From NCBI GenBank assembly GCA_025403435.1, contig CM046327.1:14376218-14440217 (forward strand): a stretch of 64,000 nt of DNA. Reading direction: 5' to 3'. The position numbers were made by a program, and so were the translations under genes. The notes beneath the pieces are model-generated. The model saw only the letters and a program-made list of their open reading frames with translations, was not told where the DNA came from and did no database searches. Shown here piece after piece: positions 16,990-60,117 of this stretch (its first letter is position 1; each line of letters begins with the position of its first letter). This DNA is from Artocarpus heterophyllus (taxonomy: Eukaryota > Streptophyta > Magnoliopsida > Rosales > Moraceae).

Positions 16990-17885
16990 ATAGTTTCATC
17001 AACTATTTTTCTCGTAGCCACCTCACACTTAGTGAGTCCTGAAAAGATAAAAATATAAGGGAATGAGCGACAATATGCTCAGTAGAGAAAACCATTACTT
17101 ACCTTTAGGTTTTTATCATTACCACATTTAAACCTGCATGGTTAGTTAATACTCATCATTATCCAGATTATGAGATTTATTATAATCATATTCTGTGGAT
17201 ACCATAGTTAATCATTACCAAGTTTCATACATATACATATATACAAATGTTACAGTTCATCATTATTCCTAAGTACCCACGTTCAATAGAGTATCACTCA
17301 ACTCATCGAAACCCAAATAGGCGCGCTTGATCACCCTCTAAATATTCCAAGGGTGTTCCGGTGAGGGGACATCAAGCCCCGAGTCCTCACCAAGTCGATT
17401 CTTGTACAGTGTGTTCTGGGACTTTCAACCCAAGGAAGCGTCATCACCTTCCCCCTATTTTACCTTTTAGGGTATTCATACCCAATGACGTAACCGCCGC
17501 CCTCTTCACGTCTCACCATTTCTCTATATTCAATCATTATTAATAGAGTCAGTTTTTCTAACCATGCTTCTCAATTTATAACATGTGTCAATTCATTATG
17601 TTTCTCGCCGTACAATACAAGACGAGTCCATGTCATAGTTTCATATGTGATACTCATATAATAACAGTTCAACATAGATATATATATATATATATCTTGC
17701 GGTAAAACAATCAATTTTAATTCCATAAAAACCTCACAAAAGATGAGTAATAGAATCCCTACCTTCCAAGCTTATCAACAATCTTTAAATCCCAGAATCA
17801 ATTAACGTTAGCTCCACACTCCCTTGATCCTAAGGCGTGCATAAGGACAATTAAAACTAAAGCACAACATACAACCACATTCATA

Positions 17886-18270
17886 AATAAATCATGTGTA
17901 AATCCATCTTATTAGTGTGCCATTAAAGCCTTTATGCAATTTTTTTTTAAATACCACAGTAAACAATTTTTGTCTTAACACAATATAAAATTAAACAAGT
18001 AATCTATATGTTTTAGTCCCTAATAAGATTCATCAATCACTTAGGATAATATTGGAAATGTTGCAAGACCTTAATGAATTAGGTGGTGAGCAAAGATAGG
18101 TTCTTGGTTCAGGTTAGCAGCTGGTATACCATGACAAACTGACAGGTTTACTAGTTTCCAATCTGAAAATTGAAAAATTCATAGAAAATAAAATACAACT
18201 CCGATTTAGGTTTATGATAACTCGTTAGAAAGCTTAGGATGTCTACTTTTTAAATATGCAAACCAATTTA
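17886..18270. other. segment present only in the family B solo LTR
   Basis: Flanking bases align directly to each other in both LTRs of the 35241-43447 element, while these ~385 bp have no counterpart there. Either an insertion here or a deletion in the younger lineage. AT-rich, no frame. Confidence 0.65.
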
Positions 18271-19158
18271 TAAAATTCATTTTAATTTAATCCTAAAATT
18301 TCAAGAAATAGCCACTGCCCATAGAGGTATTACAAAGTTTATGGAATGTCAAATTTTTCTTTAACCCAAAACATATTATCCTTGTTTAAAATCTTAAAAC
18401 CATTCCAAAATATGCAGCTTGCATTATATAATCACAATAAACATATTTTCATGAGTTTTATACCAAAATCATCATCAAACCATATCTCTAGCCTTTTTTA
18501 CAAATAAGGGTGAAAACATGCTTATGTCAAACTTTCTCATTCAAAACCATAAAATCTAAATTATACAGCAAAATAAATGAGCAATTTCAAAGTAAAGATG
18601 GTAGATAAGACTAGGTTAATTTTCTAAAATCTTACCTTAAAATCTCATTGAAAACTTTAAGTCATCAATTTAAGAGATTAAAGCTCAAGTTCAACTTTAG
18701 CATTGGGACTTTTGAATCACATGGGGCTGGGTTTCTCAGGCTTAGAGAGCAGAAGAAGGAAGAAGAAGAAGAGAACGAGAGGAAGACATTTCAAGGAGGA
18801 AGGGAAAGAAAAGTGTTGCACGGAGAAAAGAAAATGAATGTATGATTTTCTTCGTTGGAGGGCCCGATTGAAAGAAAATAATAAGAAGTGGGAGACAAGT
18901 AGGTGAAGCATTAAGTGCATTATGTCTCATTCGAAGACTTTAGTTCATATAATGCCAAATGACATTTTAATAATTAATTTGATGTTTCAAGAGCGTTTCA
19001 GTAAATTTACTAAATAGATATAAAAAAATTTTAGAAAATTTTGAAATAGATATAAATAAATAGGATGAAATAGATTTTAGATGAAATAAATTTTAGTTAG
19101 CACATTAATAATTAATTTAATTACCATATTACCTATTAAGAAAATAATGGGTGTCACA

Positions 19159-33609: not shown

Positions 33610-35240
33610 ATTCTAGTTTCATAAATCTTTTAGAATTTAGAGGAAGGCTTCTACTAAAGGGTAATAAATTAACAAATAATATGTATGAGGCTAAGAAGAC
33701 TTTGAGCACTTTGAGAATGGAGTATGAGAAAATTCATCCTTATGAAAATGATTGTGTTGTGTATAGGAATGAGTATGAGGATGGGAATTATTGCCCGGTT
33801 TATAAAAAGTTAAGGTGGAAGAAAAGAAAGGAGCCACAAAAGGTAAGAAATGAATACCGACGAAGGTATTATGGTACATTCCACTGGTATCACGTTTGAG
33901 GCATTTATTCGAAAACAAAAAGCATACCATGAATTTGATATGTCATCATGACAACCGAGTCGATGATCGTATGCTTAGACATTAGGCGGATTCACCACAA
34001 TAGAACATTTTGAAGTTGATCCTTCTGAGTTTAGTGTGGATCCAAGAAATATAAATTTCACTTTATCGATGGATGGAATAAACCCACATGGTAACATAAG
34101 TAGTAGGGATAGTACTTGGCTCGTAATACATGTCAACTTCAATCTCTCTCCAAAAATATGCATGAAGCGGAAGTTCTTAATGTTGTCTTTGTAGATTTTG
34201 GGCCCTTACCAACTAGAGAATAACATTAATGTGTACTTGGCACAGTTAATCGATGACTTAAATAACTTGTGGGAAAATGGAATCGAAGTTCGAGATGCTT
34301 ACTGAGAAGAGATGTTTACACTATGTGTAATGTTGAAATGGACAATAAATGACTTCCCTACGTATGGAAATTTATCCAGTTATTCAATAAAGAGTTCTAT
34401 TAGTTGTCCTATTTGTATGAAGGAAACATCTCATAAACAGTTAAAAAATGGTAAGAAAACTGTTTTTCTTGGCCATAGAAGATGGTTGCTAAGAGATCGT
34501 TGTTACTGTAAACAAAAGAAAGCCTTTGATAGTAATATTGAAGAAAGATACCCTCCTTGGCCTTTGACAGGTTGACAAATATTTGAAATGGTAAAAGATA
34601 TGAAAATGATACTCGAGAAGAGCAAGAAAGATAAAGACGAGCCGCCGATAGATAAACTTTGAAAAAAGATCAATCTTTTTCAAACTTCTATATTGAAAGA
34701 CACTTTTTGTTTGTCATTGCCTAGATATTATGTATATTGAGGAAAACCGTTTGTGAATCAATAGTAAGCACATTGCTTGACATTTAGGGCAAGACTAAGG
34801 ATAGTGAAAAAGCACGGTTGGATCTCATAGAGATAGAAATTAGGCCTAATCTTTTTCCCGAGAACCGCACTTACTTACCTCCAATGAAGCACATATTGTC
34901 AAGAAGAGAAAAGAGAAAGCTTTGTGAATGGCTTACATTGTTGAAAGTGCCAAACAACTATTCTTCAAACTTTAAAAAGTTAGTGTCAGTGAAGGATTTA
35001 AAACTTATTGACATGAAAATACATGATTGTTATGTGTTAATGCAATAATTTCTACCATTGCGTTGGGGGGAATCCTAACAAAGGATATGAGATTTGCAAT
35101 TACTAAGTTGTGCCTATCCTTTAATTCAATATGCTCCAAGATAATTAATCCACTTAGGCTAGATTCACTATAATCGGAGTTGCACAAACTTTATGCATGC
35201 TTGAGAAGTATTGATAATTGGCATTTTTTGACATCATGAT
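33610..35240 (+). pseudogene. CACTA TNP2 transposase, central piece (Transposase_21)
   Basis: Readable blocks in interrupted frames are MYEAKKTLSTLRMEYEKIHP...CVVYRNEYED..CPVYKKLRWKKRK (33681-33899), WTINDFPTYGNLSSYS..CPICMKETSHKQL..GHRRWLLRDRC (34312-34575) and FFPENRTYLPP-like ...KLIDMKIHDCYVLMQ (34818-35048). These are hallmarks of TNP2/Transposase_21. Frames are broken by stops and shifts, and it is cut at 35240 by the family B element. Confidence 0.88.
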
Positions 35241-37212
35241 TGTGACACCCGTTATTCTCCTAACGGGTATTGAGGTAATTAAATTAATTTTTAGTGTATA
35301 AAAAAAATTGCTTCATTTAAATTTATTTTATAATATTTATTTTTATCTATTTTTAAGTTTTCTAAAATTCTCCTATATTTATTTAGTATGATTACTAAAA
35401 AGCCTTAGAACTTCTATTAAATCTCAAAAATGTCATATTGGCATTATGTGTGTTAAAGTCTTTAGATGAGACATAAGGATATCTTTTCCAACTACTCTTG
35501 ACCCTCATTTTCTTTATTTCCTCCGTGACATGCTTCAACATGTCTCCTCTATAATTGTTTCCATCACTTCTCTTCAAAGACTTCATCTTTTCTTCCTTTC
35601 TCTTCCACGGTTCCCACACTCTTCTTCTCATTTCTTTGCTGAAGCAAAATACTTAGAGAACTTCTTCAAGGCAGCCATAAAAATCAGCCACCATCACCTC
35701 CATTTGAGCAAGAATTTCAGTCATACCGAACTAAAGGAACCTGTTTTGAAGCCATTTCAAGCTTCCAACTAACCATAATCCGAGGTTAGAATCTTATGAA
35801 CAAATTTAGTCTTTCATTTATAAATTTTCTTTTATACTAAAGGATTATTCAAATTTGCGTTCTTAAACCTAAGTATATGTTTGTTGCTATTTTGGAGCAT
35901 ATGTATGAAGTCTAAGTGTATATGCCCTAGACAGAAAATTTATATTGTTAAACTTTATAATACCTCTATGGGCAGTGGTTATTTCTTGAAATTCTAAGAT
36001 TAAATTAAAATAAATTTTATGAATGTAGTTGTATGTTGTGCTTTAGTTTTAATTGTCCTTATGCACGCCTTAGGATCAAGGGAGTATGGAGCTAACGTTA
36101 ATTGATTCCAGGATTAAGAGACTGTTGATAAGCTTAAAAGGTAGGGATTCTATTACTCATCTTTTGTGAGGTTTTTATAGAATTAAAATTGATTGTTTTG
36201 CCGCAATATATATATATCTATGTTGAACTGATATTATATGATTATCACATATGAAACTATGACATGGACTCGTCTTGTATTGTACGGCGAGGAACATAAT
36301 GAATTGACACATGTTATAAATTGAGAAGCATGGTTAGGAAAACTAACTCTATTGATAATGATTCAATATAGAGAAATTGTGAGACATGAAGAGGGCGACG
36401 GTTACGTCCTTGGGCATGAATACCCAAAAAGGTAAAATAGGGGGAAGGTGATGACGCTTCCTTGGGTTGAAAGTCCCAGAACACACTGTACAGGAATCGA
36501 TTTGGTGAGGACTCGGGGCTTGATGTCCCCTCATCGGAACACCCTTGGAATGTTTATAGGGTGATCAAGTGCGCCCATTTGGGTTTCGATGAGTTGAGTG
36601 ATACTCAATTTAACATGGATACCTAGGAACAATGATGATTGTTAATATTTGTATAAATGTGTAATTATGACACTTGGTAATGATTAACTACGGTATCTAT
36701 AAGATGTGATCATAATAAACCTCATAATCTGGAATATGATGTAACTTACTAACCATGCAGATTTTAATGTGGTAATGATAAAAACCTGAAGGTGAGTAAT
36801 GGCTTTCTCTACTGAGCATAGTGTTGCTCATTCCCTTATGTTTATATCTTTTCAGGACTCACTAAGTGTGAGGTGGCTACGAGAAATATAGTTGAGGAAG
36901 TGATGTAACTATATTACATTGGGACTGCTTCAATCGTTGAGAATGTTCTTCATGATAATGTAAGCATCAATTGTTACTTCTGTGACTGTATTATAATGTG
37001 TTGAGGGTTAAAATGATGATGACAACAGTTTATATTATTAAATTTAAGGTGCTACATTAAAACTGTGGTTTATTTGTCGTTTATATTTTTATTTTTGAGT
37101 TGAGAGTTTTCATTTAAGTCCCGGGAAAATTTTATTTTTAAGGTTTTACTTTTATTATTTATTTTTATTTTATCTCATTAAAAACTGTTAACCCCCATAT
37201 AGGGGCGTTACA
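35241..37212 (+). repeat. family B element, 5' LTR (1972 bp)
   Basis: Matches the 3' LTR throughout; the only length change noted is in the AT microsatellite near 36210. Near the end it has a cccc-atat-gggg hairpin before GCGTTACA. Confidence 0.93.
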
Positions 37213-37219
37213 GAATTTT

Positions 37220-37232
37220 TGGTATCAGAGCC
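37220..37232 (+). other. primer binding site (initiator tRNA-Met) of family B element
   Basis: TGGTATCAGAGCC, 8 bp after the 5' LTR end. Confidence 0.85.
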
Positions 37233-38701
37233 TAGGTTCGGTTAACCTAGGGAGTGTAGCACCACTTTAAAAAAATATATTTTTGAGATGGTTTTGAAGC
37301 TGAATTTTCATTGTCATCATCAAAATGAACCTTCACATTGATTTATACAGTCTAGAAGGATGTAACATGGAAAGGCCATAGAATGAAAATATCAATAGTT
37401 ATATGAGTACAATAATTTTATAGAAGGAAAGTATTAATAGTTATAAGGGAATGATAATTATATGAAATGAGTTTATAAGTAGAATGCTTATGAGAGATTC
37501 GTATAATATTTGGATCTCTAAGCATATTTAATTCGTATAAACGATGAGAAATTCGTGTAAATAAGAGGATTTAAAAGCCTTTTGTCTCGTGAAAAACAAT
37601 AAGAAATATAAGGCTTGATTTATTGATTTTAAAGTTTGACATAGATATGCCAAATTTCTAGTAATTGATTCAAACCTAAGTAATGATTATGTGTGGATTC
37701 GATGGAGCACATAAGTGTCAATATCTTTTCTTAAAAGCTCTATTTATTTGAGGAATATGATATAAGTTGGGAATCATGGTATTGAATCTTGAGAGAGATA
37801 AATGTTAGACTTTTGGTCTGTTGAGACTGTGTAAAGTCTAGAATGCATGAATCTCAAAATTGGAATATTTCGTTACGTACATTGTATTTAAGTGTACCAG
37901 TGAATCTTTTGGTTACCTAAGGTTTTGTTATATGAGGAAATTATATATTGTATGAGTAGAATTGTGGGGATTCTAGATGTTCTTAAGTAGTAACATCAAG
38001 TGTCTTTGTTCGTTGATATGGTCTATGTTGAAAGACGTAAATCGTATTGATTTCAAGGTTAGTCGCATTCTAAACCCTTGGTAGTAATGATGATGAATCC
38101 ATTGATAGATGTTAAGTATTATCAATAACATATGGGTGTATGCATTGTTCAATAAGGTTTTGATTAAAACAAAATTATTCGAGTTGCTGGAAGATTATGT
38201 TGTTATGAAATGATTTTAAATATCATTCAGGAAGATCCTTGTTGTCGTTAAATTAGATTTGTTGTTCATAGTTAACTTTATCTATAGTGGGCTTTGAATT
38301 GGGTTTGAGATTTATACAAATTGGTTTTCAATTTTATGTTTGTTATTTAACTCGTTCTAAATGTGTTAAGGCCCGAAACAACCTGACCATTTTCAACTTA
38401 GAACATTTGGGCCTAGTTCAAATCTTAAATCAGTTTGATTCACACTGTATCTCCCACGTGGTCTCTATACGTGTCATATACAGTGGTTTAATTATTGTTT
38501 ACATATACGTTTACTGTGCGTAAGACCTTATTTCTCCGAGTTCACTTTTTCTCTCTTAATTTGTTATTTTTTCTCTAAATCGCAAATCCTCTTCTTTTTC
38601 ATTAAAAATTCTTCTTTTCCTCTAAAAGAAGAAGGAATTCTAGGATTCTGCAATTTACTATCTTAATTTTTCCTTTCTATTTACTCTTCTTTCATCTCAT
38701 C
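37233..38701 (+). other. family B leader region
   Basis: About 1.5 kb without gag. The last ~180 bp before the first ORF are pyrimidine-rich (ttcactttttctctcttaat...), like a plant 5' UTR, so the ORF may have its own leader or be joined to the LTR transcript by splicing. One 78-codon frame at 38287-38523 shows no domain. Confidence 0.5.
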
Positions 38702-39223
38702 ATGGACCCAAAGTACCAACACATGAGAAAGTATTTCCCATCACTCTCCCAAAAGATTCTCAGAAAGAAATATAAGGCTAGAATTACTCGGTTGTGGATT
38801 CTTATGCGTTTTGGTATCCCTTGTGATGTGAGAATGTTAATAGAGGGGAAAATCCGTCCGGGTGACTTTAGTCAAGATGTCGGTTTACCAGGAACGGGTA
38901 CCAGTCGTAGTGCAATGAAAAGAAGAGCTCGTGCCATCGTGGTCACTTGTAACAAATGTGGAAGACAAAATTGTAACGGTAAATGTACTTCACCTGGTTA
39001 TATGTCTACGAATAGAGAGGATAAAATAAGGTTTTGTAGGGATGGACTTTCAAAGGAGAACTTGGATAGCATCCATCCTCCTCTCCACGGTCACCCTAGT
39101 GGATATGTTCAAGGAGCTATTTTTAAACTCTGGCCTAAATTTTATACAGAAAGACAACGCCTCAGGAATATGGTATTTCTAGATCCTGTTTGCCAAGCCA
39201 TAAGAAAACTGGATGGGGAATAA
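38702..39223 (+). CDS. basic Cys-rich 173-aa protein in family B retrotransposon, resembling carla-like virus nucleic-acid-binding proteins
   Basis: Complete frame, Met to TAA, preceded by a pyrimidine-rich leader. The N-terminal 30 residues are strongly basic (KKYKARITR). Then comes an 'IEGKIRPGDF' stretch, followed by GTSRSAMKRRARAIVV (66-81) directly before a cysteine cluster, C83-X2-C86-X4-C91-X3-C95 (CNKCGRQNCNGKC), and later an HP-rich segment (125-132). A Gly-x-Ser..Ala..Arg-Arg-Ala block just before a CxxC zinc-finger-like motif is the layout known from cysteine-rich nucleic-acid-binding proteins of carlaviruses and relatives (Carla_C4/Viral_NABP families), some of which suppress RNA silencing and enter the nucleus. 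It is not a Gag zinc knuckle: there is no CX2CX4HX4C. Homology is suggested by motif layout only and needs a profile search. If real, it is a captured or endogenised gene, or a host family with the same fold. Confidence 0.6.
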   Translation: MDPKYQHMRKYFPSLSQKILRKKYKARITRLWILMRFGIPCDVRMLIEGKIRPGDFSQDVGLPGTGTSRSAMKRRARAIVVTCNKCGRQNCNGKCTSPGYMSTNREDKIRFCRDGLSKENLDSIHPPLHGHPSGYVQGAIFKLWPKFYTERQRLRNMVFLDPVCQAIRKLDGE

Positions 39224-39827
39224 GTCATCGCTCTATAAAGGTTATTTAGTCTTTACTTATTTGAAGCAGTTTTAGCTGATGTTCAACAGTTTGTGTTTTT
39301 CTTTTACTCAGAATATTTGCTTTTGTGTTTGAAATAATTGTGATTATTAGATTGATACAGTAAGTGTTAATATCTTATTTAATTTATGATTTTCTTAAAT
39401 ATATATATAATAAAATATATTATCTTATCAGACACGTCACATACGGTACAGTAATATGTTTGAATTTTGAAAAGCTTATCCAGATATTTCAAGATTTGTG
39501 TCTCAAATTTCAAAAGTTCTACAGTATTTGTCGTTTATATTAAATTTCTAGACTTGGTGTATATTTGTCAAAAAGTCTACAGTTGTGTCATGAGGGTCTT
39601 CTGTCAAATTGTTCTCAATTGTCAAAAGTTATACAATTAGAGTCTAATCTTTTTCAAAAAGTGAATCAGATTTTCTGTAAACTATCAATCACCTTATCTT
39701 ACTTTCTTATCCGCACAAGATTTTGTTTAAATCTTTGGATTACCTTTTCATTACCTACTCGTCTATCTCTTTAGCCCTTTTTGTGTATTTCTCATCTTTA
39801 AAAACTCATGTAGAACCCGAAGTCTAA

Positions 39828-40517
39828 GTGGAGCAGACATTAAGCAACCACTTCTATAAACCAAATATGTCTACCTCCCAGTCCACGAAGAAAATAAAGA
39901 ATGTCTGTGTCTTTTGTGGTTCCAGCCTTGGAAAAGATAAAGCTTATTTAGAAGCTGCAAATCACTTAGGGCAAGTCCTAGCACGCAAGAAGATTAACAT
40001 AATCTATGGGGGTGGTAGTATAAAAATGATGGTAAATATGGCACTAGCAGCTAGGTCTAGTGACGCTACTGATGTAAGAATTTGGCCTCATATTCCAGTT
40101 GAAGGAAACCTTTGTAAGGAAGCCATAGGTAAGGGAGAAGGAGTCAGGAGTATCCCTAAAAATTTTAAAGACATAATCTATAATTCTGATGCTTTTATAG
40201 CATTACCTGGTGGTCTAGGTACTCTTGAGGAAATATTTATAGTTGCTTGTGGGCAATTGTTGGGCTTTTATTCCAAACCTTTGGGACTGCTGAACGTAAA
40301 GGGTTTTTATGACGGTCTTTTGAAATTTCTAGATTACGCTGTGGAAGAAAACATCACTACAGAATCAGAGAGACAAATCTTTGTCACTGCTTCAACAGCT
40401 GAGGAATTGATAGATAAAATGCAAATCATACATCCAGAATCCGACACTGCAACATCCAAGCTTGAATGGGAAAGGGAAAGCCGGGAGCGGCCAATTGATT
40501 TGAATCTCCATCTGTAA
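39828..40517 (+). CDS. LOG-family protein (cytokinin riboside 5'-monophosphate phosphoribohydrolase-like), intronless, retrotransposon-borne
   Basis: 229 aa. The usual LOG start region matches from Met14 (39867); Met1 adds 13 residues. Recognisable blocks: VCVFCGSSLGKDKAYLEAA (26-44), IIYGGGSIKMM (58-68), SDAFIALPGGLGTLEEIF (120-137) with the catalytic-type PGGxGTxxE at 127-135, GLLNVKGFYDGLL (153-165) and AEELIDKM near the end. LOG enzymes release active cytokinin bases from their nucleotides in the cytosol. Odd points: GGGSxGLMG is changed to GGGSIKMMV, and the segment before SDAF, which in LOGs carries the conserved Arg-Lys (HxRKAEM), reads IPKNFKDIIYN and lacks them. Activity is therefore doubtful. 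Plant LOG genes normally have several introns; this uninterrupted copy points to capture through RNA. It lies 604 bp after the Cys-rich ORF on the same strand. Confidence 0.88.
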   Translation: MEQTLSNHFYKPNMSTSQSTKKIKNVCVFCGSSLGKDKAYLEAANHLGQVLARKKINIIYGGGSIKMMVNMALAARSSDATDVRIWPHIPVEGNLCKEAIGKGEGVRSIPKNFKDIIYNSDAFIALPGGLGTLEEIFIVACGQLLGFYSKPLGLLNVKGFYDGLLKFLDYAVEENITTESERQIFVTASTAEELIDKMQIIHPESDTATSKLEWERESRERPIDLNLHL

Positions 40518-41455
40518 TCTTTTTGTTTTATCTTTGGCATGTAGGCATGTGTGTCCGTATTTCGTGTGTTACGAATAACCGTTTGCCTTGTATTTTGTGT
40601 TTCTTGTGGTACGTTGTTGTTCAATCTTTTAGATTCATTGAGCCTAATGCCGGGATGGCTGGATACGGAGTACTTGATGCTCTCGAAACGCATCCTTCTT
40701 AAGGTCCGATCTTTTGTTTATCGATGTTTTTGTATCCTATAAGCATGCATGATATGGATAGCTGGTATACGGAGTGCCTTGTACTCTCGAAATGTATCCG
40801 TATCATGTTTGTAATGTGTAATATTCTGTTAATATTATGTGGAAGTACCAGAGTCAGTTATGGGGATATTCCATATGAAATATGAGTATATTATTTGGGT
40901 TGAATGTTTGTGTCATGAGGATAGCTGTTTAATGAAAAATATGTCGGGTTTGTCTGCAACTCTGAGATTCCGTTTAATATCTCTATGAATAAGTTTAATG
41001 TATGGTTTTGAATATAAGTGTTTGTGATATATGTTTTATGATTATGTTTTAGTTTATTAGTTGAGGTATGAAATCAAATATATTTGACTTTTCCTTACTC
41101 AAAAAGGAAAAGGAACCTAAAGATGAAGTATATAAAATTTCTCTGGCAATCTCCTTAAATGTGATTGTAAATCACAGTCCATGGACAATGAAGGACTGGA
41201 ATCATGGTATGGTCAATATGTATGCCTGATCAGATTCTTAGACTATTATACGGTGTTATAAGTTGAAACTTGTCAGAAATACTCTTATTGAGGGATTTAG
41301 GAGTAAGATTTATTATGCAAGTAAATAAGTGGAAATACGATAACTTAAATTTGGAGGACAAACAACATTAACGGTTTAGACTCAGAATTGGAATCATAGT
41401 GGAATCATAATTTTTACTAGTATTGCTAGAATTGAAATTTCGAGGACGAAATTTC
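40518..41455 (+). other. family B 3' internal region
   Basis: Non-coding. Contains two copies of a 'ggatacggagtacttgatgctctcgaaa'-like phrase (about 40660-40690 and 40765-40795), and ends with the 'atttcgaggacgaaatttc' motif that precedes the polypurine tract in Tekay-like elements. Confidence 0.6.
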
Positions 41456-41470
41456 TTTAAGGGGGGGTAG
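41456..41470 (+). other. polypurine tract of family B element
   Basis: taaggggggggtag just before the 3' LTR. Confidence 0.8.
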
Positions 41471-41473
41471 AGC

Positions 41474-43447
41474 TGTGACACCCGTTATTCTCCTAACGGG
41501 TATTGAGGTAATTAAATTAATTTTTAGTGTATAAAAAAAATTGCTTCATTTAAATTTATTTTATAATATTTATTTTTATCTATTTTTAAGTTTTCTAAAA
41601 TTCTCCTATATTTATTTAGTATGATTACTAAAAAGCCTTAGAACTTCTATTAAATCTCAAAAATGTCATATTGGCATTATGTGTGTTAAAGTCTTTAGAT
41701 GAGACATAAGGATATCTTTTCCAACTACTCTTGACCCTCATTTTCTTTATTTCCTCCGTGACATGCTTCAACATGTCTCCTCTATAATTGTTTCCATCAC
41801 TTCTCTTCAAAGACTTCATCTTTTCTTCCTTTCTCTTCCACGGTTCCCACACTCTTCTTCTCATTTCTTTGCTGAAGCAAAATACTTAGAGAACTTCTTC
41901 AAGGCAGCCATAAAAATCAGCCACCATCACCTCCATTTGAGCAAGAATTTCAGTCATACCGAACTAAAGGAACCTGTTTTGAAGCCATTTCAAGCTTCCA
42001 ACTAACCATAATCCGAGGTTAGAATCTTATGAACAAATTTAGTCTTTCATTTATAAATTTTCTTTTATACTAAAGGATTATTCAAATTTGCGTTCTTAAA
42101 CCTAAGTATATGTTTGTTGCTATTTTGGAGCATATGTATGAAGTCTAAGTGTATATGCCCTAGACAGAAAATTTATATTGTTAAACTTTATAATACCTCT
42201 ATGGGCAGTGGTTATTTCTTGAAATTCTAAGATTAAATTAAAATAAATTTTATGAATGTAGTTGTATGTTGTGCTTTAGTTTTAATTGTCCTTATGCACG
42301 CCTTAGGATCAAGGGAGTATGGAGCTAACGTTAATTGATTCCAGGATTAAGAGACTGTTGATAAGCTTAAAAGGTAGGGATTCTATTACTCATCTTTTGT
42401 GAGGTTTTTATAGAATTAAAATTGATTGTTTTGCCGCAATATATATATATATCTATGTTGAACTGATATTATATGATTATCACATATGAAACTATGACAT
42501 GGACTCGTCTTGTATTGTACGGCGAGGAACATAATGAATTGACACATGTTATAAATTGAGAAGCATGGTTAGGAAAACTAACTCTATTGATAATGATTCA
42601 ATATAGAGAAATTGTGAGACATGAAGAGGGCGACGGTTACGTCCTTGGGCATGAATACCCAAAAAGGTAAAATAGGGGGAAGGTGATGACGCTTCCTTGG
42701 GTTGAAAGTCCCAGAACACACTGTACAGGAATCGATTTGGTGAGGACTCGGGGCTTGATGTCCCCTCATCGGAACACCCTTGGAATGTTTATAGGGTGAT
42801 CAAGTGCGCCCATTTGGGTTTCGATGAGTTGAGTGATACTCAATTTAACATGGATACCTAGGAACAATGATGATTGTTAATATTTGTATAAATGTGTAAT
42901 TATGACACTTGGTAATGATTAACTACGGTATCTATAAGATGTGATCATAATAAACCTCATAATCTGGAATATGATGTAACTTACTAACCATGCAGATTTT
43001 AATGTGGTAATGATAAAAACCTGAAGGTGAGTAATGGCTTTCTCTACTGAGCATAGTGTTGCTCATTCCCTTATGTTTATATCTTTTCAGGACTCACTAA
43101 GTGTGAGGTGGCTACGAGAAATATAGTTGAGGAAGTGATGTAACTATATTACATTGGGACTGCTTCAATCGTTGAGAATGTTCTTCATGATAATGTAAGC
43201 ATCAATTGTTACTTCTGTGACTGTATTATAATGTGTTGAGGGTTAAAATGATGATGACAACAGTTTATATTATTAAATTTAAGGTGCTACATTAAAACTG
43301 TGGTTTATTTGTCGTTTATATTTTTATTTTTGAGTTGAGAGTTTTCATTTAAGTCCCGGGAAAATTTTATTTTTAAGGTTTTACTTTTATTATTTATTTT
43401 TATTTTATCTCATTAAAAACTGTTAACCCCCATATAGGGGCGTTACA
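41474..43447 (+). repeat. family B element, 3' LTR (1974 bp)
   Basis: Partner of 35241-37212; two bases longer through one AT unit near 42445. Confidence 0.93.
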
Positions 43448-43452
43448 ATGAT

Positions 43453-51045: not shown

Positions 51046-53222
51046 TGTAACGTCCCGAAATTTATTTAATATTAATGTAATGTAAATGATGAATTAGTGT
51101 GCCATAATTAAAGTTTTAATTTTAATTAGATTATTTGGTTGGATTTTTAGTTTTTGGTTGTTTTGTTAAATTGATGTGTTCAAAAGATTCCTTGTTGATT
51201 TAAAATGATGTTTTGAGTTTTAAAACACAACAATTTGTAAAATGTTAAAAATACTCTGTTTTACAAAACCGTGGGCGGCACATGGTTTTCGCACAGTAAA
51301 ACCGCCCACCGATTTTCTCTATTTATTTCTCTCCTCTCTCTCTCTCTTCACTCTCACGGGCTCTCTCTCTCTCTTCACTCTCACGGGCTCTCTCTCTCTC
51401 TTCCCTCTCTCTCACTCGGCAGCCCCTCTCTCTCTCTCAATCTCTCTCAAATTTTTGATTTCCATTCGAATCCAAGCTTCGGAACAGCAAGGAGGAAGCT
51501 CGGGGACGTGATTCGGCGACCGAGAACGCGGATTGAAGCTTCGATTCGAGGTTAGATTCGAAATTTCTAAACTTTTTCAAAATTTTCAATTTTGTGTGTT
51601 TTTGAAATCTAAGTTTGTTTTAGCTTAGAAAACCGTGGATTTGTGTTAAATGAGCTTAGAACAACTAGAATCTAAACCTAGATTGAAGAAAAACGGATTG
51701 AATCTAAGATTTTTCATTTTTCTCCTAATTTTCTCATTTTCGGATTTTTGAAGATTTTGAGTTCAAATGTTGTTTAAATGATTCCAAACATGTTTTAGAA
51801 TGTTTTTCTATCAACTATAGTTATTTTTCATGCCTGGGAATTGAGAAATACAGGTTGGAATTCAGATTTGGATTTTGGGGATCGAGAAACCCGTGGCTGG
51901 GATTTCTGGATTTTCCCAGTTCGGCAGGCCGAAGTTCATGTTCGGCAGGCCGGAGTGATGATCGGCAAGCCGGTGTTCTTCCGACCGGCAGGCCAAATCT
52001 GGGGAAATGTTCGGCAGGCCGAACCTCGTTTCCGGCAGGCCGAACTGTGCAGTTCGGCAGGCCGAAGCAGGGCGTCCGGCAGGCCGACCGAGGCATGGAA
52101 AATTTTGTGATTTTTACCCGATTTCACTGTTTTGAACCCTAATTTAAATCCCAACCTTATAGGATGATTTTAATGATACAAATGGCACACTAGGACATCA
52201 TGAAATGATTTAGTAACATAGAATGTCTCGAACTAGATATTGATTGACTTAGTTTGTATCTAGGATCGTTCGTGGTTCCGTGGAGCTAACGTATAGCGGA
52301 CCGGGATTACGGTGTGGGGTACCGGCACGAGTACTGAGGTAGGACTTCTATCCTATTTCTTTGGTAGCCTGGTTTTGAAAGGATTTGGCTTTGAAAATGA
52401 TTTCTATCAAAATGTTTTCAACGGTTGTTTGAAAATGATTTTACCGGTTATATTTTTATATACCGTGACATGAAATGAATTTCATAATGAATGTAATTGA
52501 CAACACTCGGTAAATGGGTTTTGAATGATAATGATAATAACCACATGGGCATGATGCCATATCAGAGATCGGGTCGTGATCGACCTTGGGGGCAGGTCCC
52601 GAAACCCAGCTGGGCCACTACGGTGGTGATATCATGGTTTGCCTAGGTAAAAGTAAACTGGTGTTTTGATTTGACGAGTAGACTGTTCTGTGTCAGAACG
52701 GTTCTACTCAATTTATTTATTTATTTATTCAAATTTCTTTCTGTATAACTCCTGATAATGCTATGTTTCTTTGCATTAAATTATTTTATAAAACTTAGTC
52801 CTACTGAGCCTTTCGCTCACGTTTTATCTGTTTTAAATTCCCCCCTCTAGGTGGTTTCCCATTTAGGTTTGGAGAAGATTCTTCGGACCGAACTCAGGAG
52901 CAATAGGAAAATTTATTTGCAATCTGTATTTATTAATCAAGGCATGTAAGACTTAACTCTATTTGTACTTGGACTGTAATTGTATTTATGATATTGTCAG
53001 AACCATGTATGTGCACAAGTTGTGGGTTGTGGAACCCATATTCGCGGTTTTTATTCAATTATTGTTATTTGTTTAATGATTTTAAATTCTTTAACAAATG
53101 TGGTGGAAAAATCTCTTTATTTCTTGCTTGATTGGATTTTTAAACCCTTAATTTCAATTAAATTCTCTTTTAATTAATCTAAATATTCCGCCACGTCACC
53201 TCCCGTACTCCGGGGCGTGACA
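51046..53222 (+). repeat. Tekay element 5' LTR (2177 bp)
   Basis: One more copy than the 3' LTR of a 27-bp unit (tcactctcacgggctctctc...) near 51350-51400. Several of its differences from the 3' LTR are G-to-A or C-to-T, as expected from decay of methylated cytosines. Confidence 0.95.
51917..52090. repeat. cluster of TTCGGCAGGCCGAA palindromes in 5' LTR
   Basis: Eight copies or variants of TTCGGCAGGCCGAA within ~170 bp, each able to form a six-base stem with an AG loop. The same cluster is at 58813-58986 in the 3' LTR, where more copies keep the full palindrome. Confidence 0.9.
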
Positions 53223-53225
53223 GAA

Positions 53226-53237
53226 TGGTATCAGAGC
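53226..53237 (+). other. primer binding site (initiator tRNA-Met) of Tekay element
   Basis: TGGTATCAGAGC, 3 bp after the 5' LTR. Confidence 0.9.
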
Positions 53238-53327
53238 TCAAGGTTATGAACCTTGGGAATTGTGCACACATAGGTTTGACAATGAAATACCTCTGACAGT
53301 CCAAATTTTGTTTTCAGAAGTGAGAGA

Positions 53328-56300
53328 ATGGCACCTAGACGTCGTTCGACAGCTGACGCCGAGTTCGGAAATGATGAGGGCCTGATGAGGTCTATGATCG
53401 CGGCTTTCCGGCAGATGGCAGCCAGGACTAGACCGGAAGACTCCAGTGTTGGTAGTCGGCATGCTTTCTTTAAGGAATTTCGGCGGGCGTCTATTCCGAC
53501 TTTTGATGGCAATGGGGATCCGCAGTTAGCTGAGTATTGGTTGGATTCGATCTTGAAGCATCTTGATACCCTTGGTGTGCCTGAGGAGTATCGTGTGGAA
53601 TTCGCGGCGTATAAGCTCGAGGGTGGCGCTAACACCTGGTGGAAACAAACTAAGCGTCTGGAGCGCGGTGGCGATATCGGTTGGGACAAGTTCGAGGAGC
53701 TGTTCTATGATCGGTATTTTCCGCAGGGGTATAGAGATCAGAAGGCAGCTGAGTTTTATAGATTGCAGCAGGGTGATATGTCAGTTCGGGAGTACGAGGC
53801 AAAGTTTAGCGAGTTGGCTAGGTTTGCTCCATCAGCTGTGGCATCGGAGCGCGAGAAATGCATCAAGTTCCAGGAAGGACTCAAGGCTCCTATTCGGCGG
53901 CAGTTGGTTGCTCTACGGCTTAGAAGTTTCGGAGAGCTTGTGTCGTCGGCGATCTCCGTGGAGAATGATTACGTGCAGTATTGTGAGGACCGAGCCAAGG
54001 CTTCAGGAGGACCGCAGAGGAGTGGCAGGAAGAGCATCAGTAGTCGTCCAGCTCCGGGGAAAGGCAAGCAAGGCGGTGCGACCAGTGGCAGTAGCAGTTC
54101 GTCTGGCAGCGGGCGCAGCAATCCCTACAGCTTTCATTGTCATTTCTGTCAGCAGCCCGGACACATCAAGAGGAATTGCCCGATCAGGAGTGCTCGTCTT
54201 GGATCGCAGACCGGGGAGGATGCCAGTCGTTCATCTCAGCCTCAGCCTCAGACCCTACCTCCGCCTCCGCAGTACCCGCAGTTGCAGTATCCGCAGTTTT
54301 CTCCTCAGCAATTCTCATATCCGGCACGGGGACAGCAGCCGCAGTATTTTCAGCGCAGTGTTCCTCAGTATAGAGCTCCGAGTACAGGTAGTGTGCAGTC
54401 ATCTCCATCTCAGCAGCATCGGCCGAGTAATGCAGGACCCAGCAATGTCGGTAGAGGAAAAAGGAAGGCGCCAGTGCAGGTTCATGCAATGGCATCTGGA
54501 GGGTCAGATTCTCAGATTGGTAACGCGGTTGTCGATGGTATGGTTTTGGTTTCTAGATCTTTAGCTCGTGTTTTATTTGATATTGGTGCCTCTCATTCTC
54601 TCATTTCGAGTTCCTTTGTACATGCCTTGGGATTAGAAGTAGAAGAGTTTAATAAACCCCTAGTTATAACTTCTCCCTTGGGGCGGGTGTGTGTGAATTG
54701 TATGTGTAAATCTTGTAAAATAAAGATTGGGGATGAGATTTTGAAAAGTGATTTGATTGTACTCCCCATGAGTTCCTATGATGTGATTTTAGGGATGGAC
54801 TGGTTGTCCAGGTATAGTGCAGTTGTGGACTGCCAACTTAGAAAAGTGACCCTAGTGTCTGATAGTGGGACAGTGATCACTTACCAGGGTGGTGGTGATT
54901 GGCTAATGAGTGAGCGTCTCATGAAGTCATGTCTAGGAGGGCGAAGGAATCTAGATTGTTTTGCTTTTCTTGCCAATCTAGATTGCGAGCCCTATGTTTC
55001 GAGTAGTAGTGTAGCGATTCCGGTGGTTGGTGAGTTCGAGGATGTCTTCCCCGACGAGTTATCAGGATTACCACCGCATCGGGAGATTGAGTTTGGTATC
55101 GAGTTGTTTCCAGGGACATCACCGATTTCTATGGCACCTTATCGGATGGCGCCGGCAGAAATGAAGGAATTGAGGAGGCAACTTCAGGAGCTTGCTGATA
55201 AAGGATATATTCGGAATAGCACATCTCCGTGGGGAGCACCAGTTTTGTTCGCTAAGAAGCACGATGGGACTCTCAGGTTATGTGTGGATTATCGACAGCT
55301 GAATCGTGTTACGGTGAAGAACAAGTATCCCTTGCCTAGGATTGATGAGCTATTTGATCAGTTGGGAGGTTCGCGATACTTCTCGAAGATTGATTTGCGG
55401 TCAGGTTATCATCAGCTCAGAATCAAGGAAGAGGATATTCCCAAGACAGCATTTAGGACTCGGTATGGGCACTTCGAGTTTCTGGTTATGTCTTTCGGGT
55501 TGACGAATGCTCCAGCAGCTTTTATGGATTTGATGAACAGGATATTTAGGCCGTATCTGGATCAGTTTGTGATCGTGTTCATCGATGATATTCTTGTGTA
55601 TTCTAAGACATGGGAGGAGCATGAGCAGCATCTTCGGATCGTGCTTCAGACTCTGCGGGAACATCAGTTGTATGCTAAGAGGGAAAAGTGTGAGTTCTGG
55701 TTGACCGAGGTCAAATTTCTGGGTCATGTCATCTCGGAGCATGGTATTTCAGTGGATCCGTCCAAGATTGAAGCTATATTGGAGTGGGAACGACCAAGGA
55801 ATGTAGCGGAGATTCGCAGCTTCTTAGGTCTTGCTGGATATTACAGGAAATTTGTAAAGGACTTTTCGAAGATTGCAGCTCCATTGACGAGGTTGATCAG
55901 GAAAAACGTCAGGTTTGAGTGGGATGAAGATTGTGAGTCTGCTTTTCAGGAATTGAAGAACCGGTTGACTTCAGCTCCAGTATTAGTTATTCCTAGTAGT
56001 GATGAGCCGTATGAGGTTTATGCTGATGCTTCAGGGCGCGGACTTGGATGCGTGTTGATGCAGCATGGACGTGTGGTTGCGTACGGATCGAGACAGCTAC
56101 GACCTCACGAGCGAAATTATCCTACTCACGATTTAGAGCTTGCAGCGGTGATCTACGCGCTGAAGATTTGGAGATGTTACTTGTATGGAGCATCATTTCA
56201 GGTCTTCTCCGATCATAAGAGTTTGAGGCATTTGTTCACTCAGAGGGATCTCAACTTGAGGCAGCGCAGATGGGTAGAGTACATGGAGGATTATGATTTC

Positions 56301-57920
56301 GCGTTGCAGTATCATCCCGGGAAAGCTAATGTGGTAGCGGACGCGCTTAGCAGAAAGTCTTCAGGGATTCTCGCTTGTTTTATTTTTGAGGACTGGAGCA
56401 GGGATGCGACAGTGAGTGAGTATCGGCTACAGTATCATGACGACGGTGATCGAGTTTTGTTGTATCATGTGGAAGCGACTCCAGCTCTTGTTCGGATGGT
56501 GAAGCAAGGTCAGTGGCAGGATCGACATTTGCAGGGGATTTGGTCGCGGATTCAGAACGGAGAGCAGTTTGAGGAATGGAGCGTGCATGCAGATGGATCG
56601 TTGTACTTCCGGGAGCGTCTTGCAGTTCCAGTTATCGCCGAGGTGACGAAAGCCGTTCTAGATGAAGCTCATAGGTCTCAGTTTGCTATTCATCCGGGGA
56701 GCACCAAGATGTATCGTGATTTGAAGAGGCACTATTGGTGGAGAGGCATGAAGAAAGATGTTCGCGAGTACGTGGCCAAGTGTTCGACGTGTCTTCAGGT
56801 GAAAGCTGAGCACCAGAAGCCTGCAGGTCAGCTTCAGCCGCTTCCTATTCCAGGGTGGAAATGGGAGCATGTGACGATGGATTTCCTCACAGGTTTGCCG
56901 AGGACGGAGCAGCGGCATGATGCAGTTTGGGTTGTGGTCGACAGGTTGACGAAATCGGCGCATTTCATTCCGTTTAGGTCGACGTGTTCCAGGAAGATTC
57001 TTGGGGAGCTGTATATGCAGAACATTGTGAGGTTGCATGGAGTTCCTTTGTCCATCACCTCTGATCGAGACACCAGGTTTAATGCTAAGTACTGGAGGAG
57101 TTTTCAGGAGGCTTTGGGTACAGATTTGAACTTCAGTACGGCGTTTCATCCTCAGACTGATGGGCAGTCTGAGCGGGTTATTCAGGTTCTCGAGGATATG
57201 TTGCGTGCTTGTGCGTTGGACTTCGGCGGGAATTGGAAGCAATGTTTGCATTTGGCGGAGTTCGCGTACAACAACAGTTATCAGGCGAGTATCGGTATGG
57301 CACCATTTGAGGCGTTGTATGGGCGACCGTGTCGGTCACCTGTGTGTTGGGCCGAGCCGGAGGATAGAGTTATTCTTGGGCCAGATGAGATTCGTGACAG
57401 CAATGAGAAAGTCGCGGTGATTCGGGATCGGTTGAGAGCAGCTCAGAGTCGGCAGAAGAGCTACGCGGATAGGAGACGTAGACCCTTAGAGTTCGCGGTT
57501 GGAGATTTTGTTCTCTTGAGGGTGTCACCTCGTAAGGGAACTATGCGGTTCGGGGTGAGTGGGAAACTCGCGCCGAGGTATATTGGGCCGTTCGAGATCA
57601 CTCAGCGTGTTGGTGTGGTCGCTTATCGGCTTGATCTTCCGCCCGAACTTTCTCATGTGCACGATGTGTTTCATGTGTCTATGCTTAGGAAGTGTCCACC
57701 TGAGCAGGGTAAGATAGTATCGTTTCGCGATGTACAGGTTCAGGAGGATACGACGTACGAAGAAGTGCCGATTCAGATCATCGACCGGAAAGTGATTAGC
57801 TTGCGTCGTCGTGAGATATCGTTGGTAAAGGTCGTGTGGCAGCATCACGGGGTTGATGAAGCCACTTGGGAACTAGAGTCGGGTATGCGGGAGTTATATC
57901 CGCATTTGTTTTGCTTTTGA
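53328..57920 (+). CDS. Gag-Pol polyprotein, Ty3/gypsy chromovirus (Tekay/Del)
   Basis: 1530 codons without a stop or shift. Order: Gag (retrotransposon-gag domain ~50-230), zinc knuckle C271-X2-C274-X4-H279-X4-C284, a Pro/Gln-rich linker (300-380), aspartic protease (~410-500), reverse transcriptase (~600-800, FIDD at 751-754), RNase H (D900 in VYADAS), integrase with HHCC zinc site (H1115, H1122, C1152, C1155) and D1185, D1246, E1282 (35 residues between the last two), and a C-terminal chromodomain-like end (about 1478-1528: IIDRKV..LRRREI..VKVVW....DEATWE.E..M...YPHLF). It supplies replication, cDNA integration and probably heterochromatin targeting. One defect stands out: the protease active site is D418-I-G-A rather than DTGA or DSGA (ATT at 54582-54584), expected to abolish maturation. 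Start is the first Met after the leader. Confidence 0.95.
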
Positions 57921-57953
57921 GATGAGTTGTAAATTTCGAGGACGAAATTTCTT

Positions 57954-57968
57954 TTAGGGGTAGAGAGC
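57954..57968 (+). other. polypurine tract of Tekay element
   Basis: taggggtagagagc directly before the 3' LTR, preceded by the 'atttcgaggacgaaatttc' motif. Confidence 0.8.
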
Positions 57969-60117
57969 TGTAACGTCCCGAAATTTATTTAATATTAATG
58001 TAATGTAAATGATGAATTAGTGTGCCATAATTAAAGTTTTAACTTTAATTAGATTATTTGGTTGGATTTTTAGTTTTTGGTTGTTTTGTTAAATTGATGT
58101 GTTCAAAAGATTCCTTGTTGATTTAAAATGATGTTTTGAGTTTTAAAACACAACAATTTGTAAAATGTTAAAAATACTCTGTTTTACAAAACCGTGGGCG
58201 GCACATGGTTTTCGCACAGTAAAACCGCCCACCGATTTTCTCTATTTATTTCTCTCCTCTCTCTCTCTCTTCACTCTCACGGGCTCTCTCTCTCTCTTCC
58301 CTCTCTCTCACTCGGCAGCCCCTCTCTCTCTCTCAATCTCTCTCAAATTTTTGATTTCCATTCGAATCCAAGCTTCGGAACAGCAAGGAGGAAGCTCGGG
58401 GACGTGATTCGGCGACCGAGAACGCGGATTGAAGCTTCGATTCGAGGTTAGATTCGAAATTTCTAAACTTTTTCAAAATTTTCAATTTTGTGTGTTTTTG
58501 AAATCTAAGTTTGTTTTAGCTTAGAAAACCGTGGATTTGTGTTAAATGAGCTTAGAACAACTAGAATCTAAACCTAGATTGAAGAAAAACGGATTGAATC
58601 TAAGATTTTTCATTTTTCTCCTAATTTTCTCATTTTCGGATTTTTGAAGATTTTGAGTTCAAATGTTGTTTAAATGATTCCAAACATGTTTTAGAATGTT
58701 TTTCTATCAACTATAGTTATTTTTCATGCCTGGGAATTGAGAAAAACAGGTTGGAATTCAGATTTGGATTTTGGGGATCGAGAAACCCGTGGCTGGGATT
58801 TCTGGATTTTCCCAGTTCGGCAGGCCGAAGTTCATGTTCGGCAGGCCGAAGTGATGATCGGCAGGCCGGTGTTCTTCCGACCGGCAGGCCGAATCTGGGG
58901 AAATGTTCGGCAGGCCGAACCTCGTTTCCGGCAGGCCGAACTGTGCAGTTCGGCAGGCCGAAGCAGGGCGTCCGGCAGGCCGACCGAGGCATGGAAAATT
59001 TTGTGATTTTTACCCGATTTCACTGTTTTGAACCCTAATTTAAATCCCAACCTTATAGGATGATTTTAATGATACAAATGGCACACTAGGACATCATGAA
59101 ATGATTTAGTAACATAGGATGTTTCGAACTAGATATTGATTGACTTAGTTTGTATCTAGGATCGTTCGTGGTTCCGTGGAGCTAACGTATAGCGGACCGG
59201 GATTACGGTGTGGGGTACCGGCACGAGTACTGAGGTAGGACTTCTATCCTATTTCTTTGGTAGCCTGGTTTTGAAAGGATTTGGCTTTGAAAATGATTTC
59301 TATCAAAATGTTTTCAACGGTTGTTTGAAAATGATTTTACCGGTTATATTTTTATATACCGTGACATGAAATGAATTTCATAATGAATGTAATTGACAAC
59401 ACTCGGTAAATGGGTTTTGAATGATAATGATAATAACCACATGGGCATGATGCCATATCAGAGATCGGGTCGTGATCGACCTTGGGGGCAGGTCCCGAAA
59501 CCCAGCTGGGCCACTACGGTGGTGATATCATGGTTTGCCTAGGTAAAAGTAAACTGGTGTTTTGATTTGACGAGTAGACTGTTCTGTGTCAGAACGGTTC
59601 TACTCAATTTATTTATTTATTTATTCAAATTTCTTTCTGTATAACTCCTGATAATGCTATGTTTCTTTGCATTAAATTATTTTATAAAACTTAGTCCTAC
59701 TGAGCCTTTCGCTCACGTTTTACTGTTTTAAATCCCCCCCTCTAGGTGGTTTCCCATTTAGGTTTGGAGAAGATTCTTCGGACCGAACTCAGGAGCAATA
59801 GGAAAATTTATTTGCAATCTGTATTTATTAATCAAGGCATGTAAGACTTAACTTTATTTGTACTTGGACTGTAATTGTATTTATGATATTGTCAGAACCA
59901 TGTATGTGCACAAGTTGTGGGTTGTGGAACCCATATTCGCGGTTTTTATTCAATTATTGTTATTTGTTTAATGATTTTAAATTCTTTAACAAATGTGGTG
60001 GAAAAATCTCTTTATTTCTTGCTTGATTGGATTTTTAAACCCTTAATTTCAATTAAATTCTCTTTTAATTAATCTAAATATTCCGCCACGTCACCTCCCG
60101 TACTCCGAGGCGTGACA
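57969..60117 (+). repeat. Tekay element 3' LTR (2149 bp)
   Basis: Partner of 51046-53222, with one fewer 27-bp CT-rich unit. Confidence 0.95.

Follow-up and report, generated by a model that had tools for sequence, protein, structure and literature searches.

Non-autonomous long terminal repeat (LTR) retrotransposons are usually explained as empty templates or as donors of Gag. Among them, large retrotransposon derivatives (LARDs) have LTRs of about 2 kb, a primer-binding site (PBS), a polypurine tract (PPT) and an interior of several kilobases without gag-pol, occur in high copy number and are presumed to be mobilised in trans. The interiors of LARDs are regarded as non-coding. Here we describe an element of ~8.2 kb at positions 35241..43447 of a 64,000-nucleotide stretch of the Artocarpus heterophyllus genome (GCA_025403435.1, contig CM046327.1, positions 14,376,218 to 14,440,217 of the forward strand; hereafter the window, meaning this whole stretch). 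The element has these LARD features in common, and differs in that its interior encodes two conserved proteins under purifying selection, a basic Cys-rich protein (open reading frame 1, ORF1) and a protein of the LOG family (ORF2). The family to which it belongs comprises thousands of copies, shows selection on two non-retroviral proteins and has no recognisable retroviral gene.

Several described systems resemble this element in part. TR-GAG elements are also non-autonomous LTR elements with a retained ORF that use the enzymes of relatives (PMC8704663). Their ORF is gag, whereas the studied element has two ORFs, neither recognisably retroviral, and at the profile level no gag or zinc-knuckle match was found in ORF1. 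Plant LTR elements with an additional ORF of unknown function, present in most copies of a family, have been reported as well; the described examples retain gag-pol, while the studied element has only the extra ORFs (PMC7264820, PMC11963269). The nearest precedent among these accounts is an orchid family, a Phalaenopsis Ty3/Gypsy element with a captured ALKBH5-like RNA demethylase, a gained gene with an RNA-virus parallel (AlkB occurs in Betaflexiviridae and others) that was kept through subfamily splits (PMC9289625). It differs in having a single added ORF, described as a recent acquisition. The same report screened plant LTR consensus sequences and lists 15 unusual domains in Gypsy elements; its main text nowhere contains the word “decarboxylase” (PMC9289625). 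An LTR element with LOG was not reported in any of the top-ranked papers that our literature search examined. Captured genes under selection are not in themselves a novelty, since according to a review most of ~1,235 LTR-captured rice genes are under negative selection; for rice and sorghum this selection was read as host retention, while here it is seen within thousands of element copies (PMC13317346).

Structure of the element

As an LTR retrotransposon the window copy is complete, with paired LTRs, target-site duplication (TSD), PBS and PPT all present (features of the element are given on the plus strand of the window). LTR alignment and a repeat search placed the 5′ LTR (TGTGACACCC...GGCGTTACA, 1972 bp) at 35241..37212, and the alignment placed the 3′ LTR (1974 bp) at 41474..43447. 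There are no substitutions between the two, the sole difference being a 2-bp AT indel at 36206 within a TA run. Comparison of the LTRs and their flanks revealed a perfect 5-bp TSD, ATGAT, at 35236..35240 on the 5′ side and 43448..43452 on the 3′ side. The PBS TGGTATCAGAGCC was read from the sequence at 37220..37232 and is, as we take it, the complement of the plant initiator tRNA-Met. The PPT region (41435..41473), recognised from the sequence and a repeat match, holds a purine tract at 41459-41467 separated from the 3′ LTR by 6 bp, and 30 bp of this region are 96.7% identical to positions 57931-57960 within a gag-pol element of the same window.

Between the LTRs lies an interior of 4261 bp (37213..41473). 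The list of ORFs gave two frames open from ATG to stop, ORF1 (173 aa, 38702..39223) and the intronless ORF2 (216 aa, 39867..40517). The longest plus-strand frame of the interior reaches 229 codons, while 300 dinucleotide shuffles gave longest six-frame ORFs with a median of 91 and a maximum of 165 codons; the interior frames therefore exceed chance length. Search with Pfam profiles at E values up to 1 detected no retroelement domain in either ORF, and with two ORFs and no gag-pol the element is non-autonomous. A preliminary description of the locus, made from the sequence alone, had claimed near-identical LTRs, a perfect TSD, intact PBS and PPT, and two open non-retroviral frames without any retroelement enzyme, all of which our analysis confirmed, the indel being the one difference between the LTRs.

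Recurrence of the two genes across the assembly

The whole assembly (985 Mb, 334 contigs) was searched for further copies. A 31-base pattern spanning the junction of LTR end and PBS was found at 3,829 sites with at most 2 mismatches, and a 31-mer of ORF1 at 3,049 sites; the reversed control gave 0 sites in both cases. If every junction represented a full element, the family would occupy ~31 Mb or ~3% of the assembly, which by this arithmetic is an upper bound. The LTR used as a query gave 40 near-identical matches, the best 40 of 1,400 candidates, and one short fragment; 11 pairs of these matches are spaced 6.1-6.4 kb apart. Eight LTR pairs, including that of the window copy, differ at 0-2 substitutions per ~1,970 positions; compared with one another, the 16 LTRs differ by 0.9% on average. 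The burst of the family is recent, yet sublineages exist.

To follow the cargo, three samples of copies were used. In sample (a), 30 loci picked by ORF1 with the window copy included, ORF2 was also present in 29 of 30, and the distance from ORF1 start to ORF2 start was 1164-1173 bp in 29/29. For sample (b), defined by LTRs, 23 of the 28 candidates other than that of the window were fetched and five were left out. ORF1 was carried by 18 of these 23 loci (17 intact) and the remaining five were solo LTRs; a whole ORF2 was found in 17 of the 18 ORF1 carriers, intact in all 17, the 18th being clipped by the fetched stretch. Sample (c) comprised the 65 exact junctions listed on one contig (C1), exact junctions being biased to young copies. 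The exact ORF1 31-mer stood 1.62-1.85 kb downstream of 48 of these 65 junctions, and an ORF1 or ORF2 protein match was found at 6 more. Among the 11 that remained, nine had ORF1 sequence (one of them rearranged), one led into gag-pol and one was unreadable with a family-like leader. In total, cargo sequence was present at 63/65 exact junctions of contig C1. Unrelated or frameshifted interiors in other members, named in the preliminary description as the outcome that would speak against a mobile cassette, are thus not the rule; broken copies do occur. One-off gene transduction was considered and rejected in view of the thousands of sites and the sister family described below. For the protein searches, the 150 rows taken are the best-scoring matches, and intactness among them was not used as a rate.

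At L108 on contig C1, ORF1 is the site of a join between two family members of opposite orientation, which represents an inversion or a nested insertion of one copy in another. The first base of contig C9 is also that of an ORF2 copy, and the repeat probably broke the assembly there.

Selection on the two frames

Pooled counts included only copies not chosen on the ORF concerned (n = 33 for ORF1, n = 45 for ORF2). The ORF1 pool excludes L031-L060, which were picked by ORF1, and 15 of its 33 copies were picked by a 100% identical ORF2. The ORF2 pool excludes L031 (the window copy), L051 (no ORF2 in the stretch) and L086 (clipped by the fetched stretch), and 3 of its 45 rows duplicate the sequence of another row. 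Frames were intact in 29/33 copies of ORF1 and 42/45 of ORF2. The ratio of non-synonymous to synonymous polymorphism (pN/pS) was 0.16 for ORF1 and 0.27 for ORF2, and with these values and mostly intact frames the interior is unlike the non-coding interior of a LARD.

Variants common to at least two copies were mainly synonymous, with synonymous:non-synonymous counts of 12:7 in ORF1, 10:8 in ORF2 and 22:15 together. These depart from the neutral expectation of ~72% non-synonymous and ~28% synonymous changes with a joint p of 8e-5, a value that treats sites as independent and is made too optimistic by the relatedness of the copies. Shared variants mostly arose in elements that later copied themselves, and private variants mostly after insertion. 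For the latter, counts were 16:19 in ORF1 (p 0.02, a mild departure) and 13:28 in ORF2 (p 0.41, which fits neutrality). Such a pattern is what would be expected of proteins that are needed during the spread of the element and free to decay afterwards. When 8 more diverged ORF1 copies from contig C1 were added, 33/41 were intact, pN/pS was 0.22 and shared variants were 20:14; compared with the window copy, these eight gave ORF1 pN/pS values of 0.16-0.40. A ninth leftover ORF1 copy from the contig is rearranged and lies outside the 8 that could be aligned.

In sample (a), diversity was highest in the leader (2.3%), followed by the spacer (1.3%) and ORF2 (0.9%). In sample (b), the diversity of ORF1 (1.2%) did not fall below that of the spacer (1.3%), and ORF2 was at 0.8%; for this reason the argument for selection on ORF1 rests on codon class and not on overall diversity. 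Gaps at two positions were seen in 3 of 12 LTR-anchored 3′ pieces of ORF2, and two of those elements were intact when read whole. In two copies (L105 and L109), a stop was found at the same Trp codon, codon 144 of ORF1, perhaps as a recurrent change in methylated copies or by shared descent.

A sister family with the same gene pair

A 73-residue segment of AtLOG3 was used as a query for further LOG sequences. The best 150 of 4,672 candidates matched at 54-63% identity and nearly all spanned the whole segment, which disfavours introns within it. Among these 150, 99 had a frame of at least 200 codons and a stop-free match, and 13 rows had a stop (hand count). At two of the loci (L114 and L115), a homologue of ORF1 was found upstream of LOG, with 54-56% aa identity to the window copy in ORF1 and 49-51% in ORF2. 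Between the families, measured against L115, dN/dS was ~0.14 for ORF1 (dS 2.5, near saturation) and ~0.31 for ORF2 (dS 1.3); in the comparison with L114 the dS of ORF1 is saturated. L114 and L115 compared with each other gave 0.47 and 0.77, which points to little or no constraint, as old copies would be expected to show. The ORFs therefore recur in the same order with ratios below 1 both within and between families, as the preliminary description had predicted.

With the sister ORF1 as a query, the best 150 of 5,739 candidates were near full length at 86-100% identity, and ~42 of these 150 had no stop (hand count). Judged by these sequences, the sister family is older and decaying. At least 93 of the best 150 sister ORF1 matches have a listed LOG match downstream on the same strand, and in 89/93 of these pairs the LOG segment begins 1.40-1.51 kb from the ORF1 start, compared with ~1.44 kb in the window copy. 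As a control, LOG upstream or on the opposite strand was counted beside the sister ORF1 and was found in 0 cases among the best 150 matches of each. Since order, strand and spacing are the same in both families, the two genes have moved together through a deep split. The sister family is presumably an LTR element too. What the preliminary description proposed, a gene cassette in a young element, thus holds for the two-gene cargo; it does not hold as the pickup of one young element, as there is a family of thousands together with a much older sister family.

Properties of ORF1

ORF1 is a basic protein (34 K+R vs. 14 D+E) with seven Cys residues, all invariant in 33/33 pooled copies; one Cys is replaced in 2/8 of the extra C1 copies. 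It contains the motif KRRAR followed by C-x2-C-x4-C-x3-C. In Pfam it matches only Viral_NABP (E 0.012) and Carla_C4 (E 0.13), both below cut-off, and the two sister ORF1s match Viral_NABP (E 0.0027 and 0.029) and nothing else in Pfam. The match to the Viral_NABP profile covers residues 64-118 of the window ORF1 and 33-112 of a sister ORF1. Shuffled or reversed ORF1 controls matched Viral_NABP in 0/10 cases, and two of them gave other chance matches at E 0.019 and 0.087. No gag or zf-CCHC match was found in the ORF1 of either family with Pfam. A search of PDB with ORF1 returned two weak matches, the better being KduD at E 0.041, and a three-member ORF1 profile returned none. The single-sequence AlphaFold2 model of ORF1 had a mean pLDDT of 42.

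The Viral_NABP and Carla_C4 profiles lead to the cysteine-rich proteins (CRPs) of carlaviruses. In two examples of these a basic motif adjoins a finger of the form CX2CX9CX4C or CX2CX12CX4C, and for one carlavirus CRP preliminary tests showed suppression of local RNA silencing (PMC3689765, PMC10141686). ORF1 and the CRPs have in common the basic motif directly before a Cys cluster, while ORF1 differs by its sub-threshold score, another Cys spacing and a longer N-terminus. A search of viral contigs, by which close relatives only were detectable, found none of ORF1, ORF2 or the ORF1 profile. From these features ORF1 is predicted to be a Cys-rich nucleic-acid-binding protein (NABP) related to the NABP/CRP of plant viruses.

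Directly before ORF1 lies a pyrimidine-rich, ATG-free stretch of 338 nt (38364..38701); no other ATG gap in the interior is as long. In two sister copies, too, the 169-171 nt read upstream of ORF1 lack ATGs and are rich in pyrimidines. In the window copy the region from the PBS to ORF1 holds 37 ATGs, and ORF2 is preceded by only 56 ATG-free nt. The stretch is possibly the 5′ leader of a separate transcript, and together with the 37 ATGs it suggests translation of ORF1 from a shorter or spliced RNA rather than from the genomic RNA.

Properties of ORF2

By fold ORF2 belongs to the LOG family, as its scores lie above the cut-offs of PF03641 (E 9e-22; 78.1 vs. 27 bits) and TIGR00730 (E 5.8e-38; 130.4 vs. 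96.35 bits), and it matches PDB 2a33 at E 2e-43. The best match among solved structures is the plant protein At2g37210/AtLOG3, with 40.5% identity across 200 residues without a gap. The PGGxGTxxE motif is common to both. Plant LOG genes contain introns.

Arg99 and Glu122 are the two proposed catalytic residues of LOG, and the Corynebacterium LOG lost nearly all activity when its binding and catalytic residues were changed to Ala (PMC4979012). In ORF2, Arg99 is replaced by Asn in 45/45 copies while Glu122 is retained in 45/45, so that the catalytic pair of a LOG enzyme is incomplete in the window family. Met96, His97, Lys100, Glu125 and Trp129 are replaced as well, all six positions being differences from AtLOG3, a LOG cytokinin riboside-5′-monophosphate phosphoribohydrolase. 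On the NCBI LOG equivalog model ORF2 scores 85.6 bits against a cut-off of 300. Two sister copies retain Met96, Arg99, Glu122 and Trp129, and lack His97, Lys100 and Glu125. Since Arg99 and other residues are replaced, no LOG activity is expected in the window family, and its ORF2 is probably a pseudoenzyme. The LOG-family cargo of the preliminary description is therefore borne out as a fold, but not as a mobile cytokinin enzyme.

Relatives with gag-pol and probable movement in trans

The window also contains a Ty3/Gypsy element at 51046..60117 on the plus strand, defined by LTR, ORF and Pfam matches, with a single unbroken gag-pol frame of 1544 codons (53286-57917) and LTRs 98.3% identical. 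By its features it is Tekay-like, and it may serve as a model of the helper type, as a candidate only. It has the PBS type, the 30-bp PPT motif and similar LTR ends in common with the studied element; it differs by its gag-pol, and its LTR gave no blastn match to that of the studied element.

A closer relative was met at the C1 junction that leads into gag-pol. Here the sequence enters gag, protease-reverse transcriptase and integrase with 34-67% aa identity to the gag-pol of the window. The LTR of this relative is 82-89% identical to the family LTR in blocks within positions 711-1594 and 68% across its last 200 bp; over the first 59 bp of the interior, identity to the family is 91.5%. Shared cis signals were thus found in one copy of a gag-pol relative (L111, L112, L104, L116), and the combination of gag-pol with a related LTR and PBS region suggests movement of the family in trans. 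As the two proteins are selected in an element that borrows its enzymes, they would be expected to favour their own RNA (cis-preference), which would fit an RNA-binding ORF1.

Interpretation and alternatives

Our best reading is an old helper-dependent retroelement lineage with two non-retroviral proteins that would serve its own spread, to which molecular roles can be assigned provisionally. The element would be a member of a large, non-autonomous LTR family of Ty3/Gypsy (Tekay-like) type, in whose interior a conserved two-gene module would replace gag-pol. The RNA of the element would be copied and inserted in trans by a gag-pol relative with common LTR-end and PBS signals, and selection would keep both proteins because they raise the success of the copy that encodes them. 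ORF1 may bind the RNA of its own element and either shield it from silencing or aid its packaging. ORF2 could have originated from a LOG enzyme by way of a reverse-transcribed mRNA; the ancestral type, to judge from the Arg99 and Glu122 kept in two sister copies, probably raised cytokinin and thereby favoured dividing cells, and in the window family ORF2 probably became a non-catalytic nucleotide-fold protein or dimer partner. For this explanation as a whole, a non-autonomous Tekay-like family with a two-gene module, copied in trans and with proteins selected for copy success, we put the chances slightly above even.

Several observations weigh against it. The Viral_NABP scores of the three ORF1s (16.0, 18.2 and 14.8 bits) lie under the curated cut-off of 23, and for the window ORF1 the NCBIfam model of an unrelated enzyme family, KduD, has a lower E value (0.0007) than Viral_NABP (0.012). 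The Cys spacing of ORF1 is unlike that of the carlavirus CRPs, and the sister family has F in place of C86. Private variants of ORF2 are near neutral, four of the eight alignable C1 copies without the exact ORF1 31-mer are broken, and selection was measured within one genome and mostly on young copies. Moreover, the sole gag-pol relative read has frame breaks. Because the controls and KduD give comparable chance matches, a single E value of such size means little; the recurrence of Viral_NABP in a 54%-identical protein means more than one value, though the sequences are related. The match to KduD, an enzyme of ~250 residues, reaches 19 bits against a cut-off of 430; it was set aside, as it is absent in both sister ORF1s, which keep Viral_NABP.

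ORF1 might instead be a shortened and diverged, nucleocapsid-like Gag that aids packaging, with ORF2 as an extra host gene and the element as a Gag donor to, or parasite of, a Tekay-like helper. ORF1 is indeed the first ORF after the PBS, the usual place of gag, is basic and Cys-rich as such a Gag would be, and TR-GAG elements with gag as the only ORF exist, one of which transposed in ddm1 plants (PMC8704663). We nevertheless regard this as unlikely, if the strongest of the alternatives: with the same library that found neither gag nor zf-CCHC in the ORF1 of either family and only Viral_NABP in the sister ORF1s, the gag-pol of the window matched Retrotrans_gag well above cut-off and zf-CCHC just below it. 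The C-x2-C-x4-C-x3-C spacing is, moreover, not that of a CCHC knuckle. An origin of both genes in an integrated Betaflexiviridae-like RNA virus with NABP and LOG, a segment of which was taken over by an LTR element, would account for two genes that are adjacent at almost equal spacing in both families and for the NABP-like ORF1. It appears improbable, as the viral contigs held no relatives of either ORF, within the reach of that search, and the best structure match of ORF2 is the plant protein AtLOG3. A LOG gene is not known to us from any plant RNA virus.

That the interior consists of captured fragments without function, open merely because the copies are young, as in a neutral LARD, could be argued from the 0-2 differences per ~1,970 positions in 8/8 LTR pairs, which leave little time for decay, and from the diversity of ORF1 in the LTR-chosen sample, which was not below that of the spacer. 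Shared variants are mainly synonymous, though, the gene pair outlived a split between families with dS above 1, and simulated neutral decay closed either frame long before the divergence between the families was reached; by the census, selection and sister-family data this view is largely refuted, and we think it distinctly improbable. LOG proteins act in plant development, which counts for the idea that the host keeps both proteins for a domesticated cytokinin or antiviral function and that the element is their vehicle. Against this, an element burst still under way is suggested by the thousands of copies, which are near-identical where read, and by the solo LTRs; host benefit would hardly exert selection on so many redundant copies one by one, and Arg99 is lost in the window family, so that we consider it very improbable. 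Repeats did disturb the assembly in places, as the contig starting exactly at an ORF2 copy indicates. A misassembly or collapsed repeat at the present locus is scarcely credible, given the clean TSD, a CACTA transposon interrupted on both sides and the same structure at dozens of sites; the data from the census, from selection and from the sister family led us to reject it.

If the lineage is helper-dependent as we favour, the family offers a direct test case for cis-preference in trans-mobilised retroelements, and for the question whether retroelements spread by means of anti-silencing or hormone-related proteins. Should ORF1 prove to be of viral type, it would be a record of gene flow from RNA viruses to LTR elements. 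A bolder and much more tentative view is that of an old, satellite-like lineage of plant retroelements, in which gag-pol gave way to two genes of its own, one for an RNA-binding protein of virus type that may suppress silencing and one for a protein derived from LOG, and which would live on and outnumber its Tekay-like helpers through cis-selected silencing- or hormone-related functions; counterparts would then be expected in other plants.

Insertion site and other features of the window

The element is inserted into a CACTA-type transposon, which it splits. A Transposase_21 fragment of the host transposon was found by Pfam match before the element (34306..34572, plus strand), and a weak Pfam match to DUF4218 (43573-43842) marks the continuation of the CACTA transposon on its 3′ side. 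About 1.4 kb before the transposase fragment, at 32330-32935, lies a tandem array of 74-76-bp units. Searches of the window for tRNAs, and for Rfam matches at the gathering threshold, found none.

An older solo LTR of a related subfamily, 77-92% identical to the LTR of the element, occupies 7588..19158 on the minus strand in two pieces (7588-7894 and 16995-19158). It is interrupted by a nested LTR-like element at ~7898-16991 with two 4.0-kb terminal repeats 97.5% identical and an interior of only ~1.1 kb. This nested element has a minus-strand PBS-like sequence, TGGTATCAGAG, that resembles the PBS of the studied element. In a genome search with the solo-LTR subfamily, the best 40 of 4,573 candidates were 95-100% identical, and one pair on contig C64 lay 6.9 kb apart, a spacing which suggests that full elements of a different size may exist.

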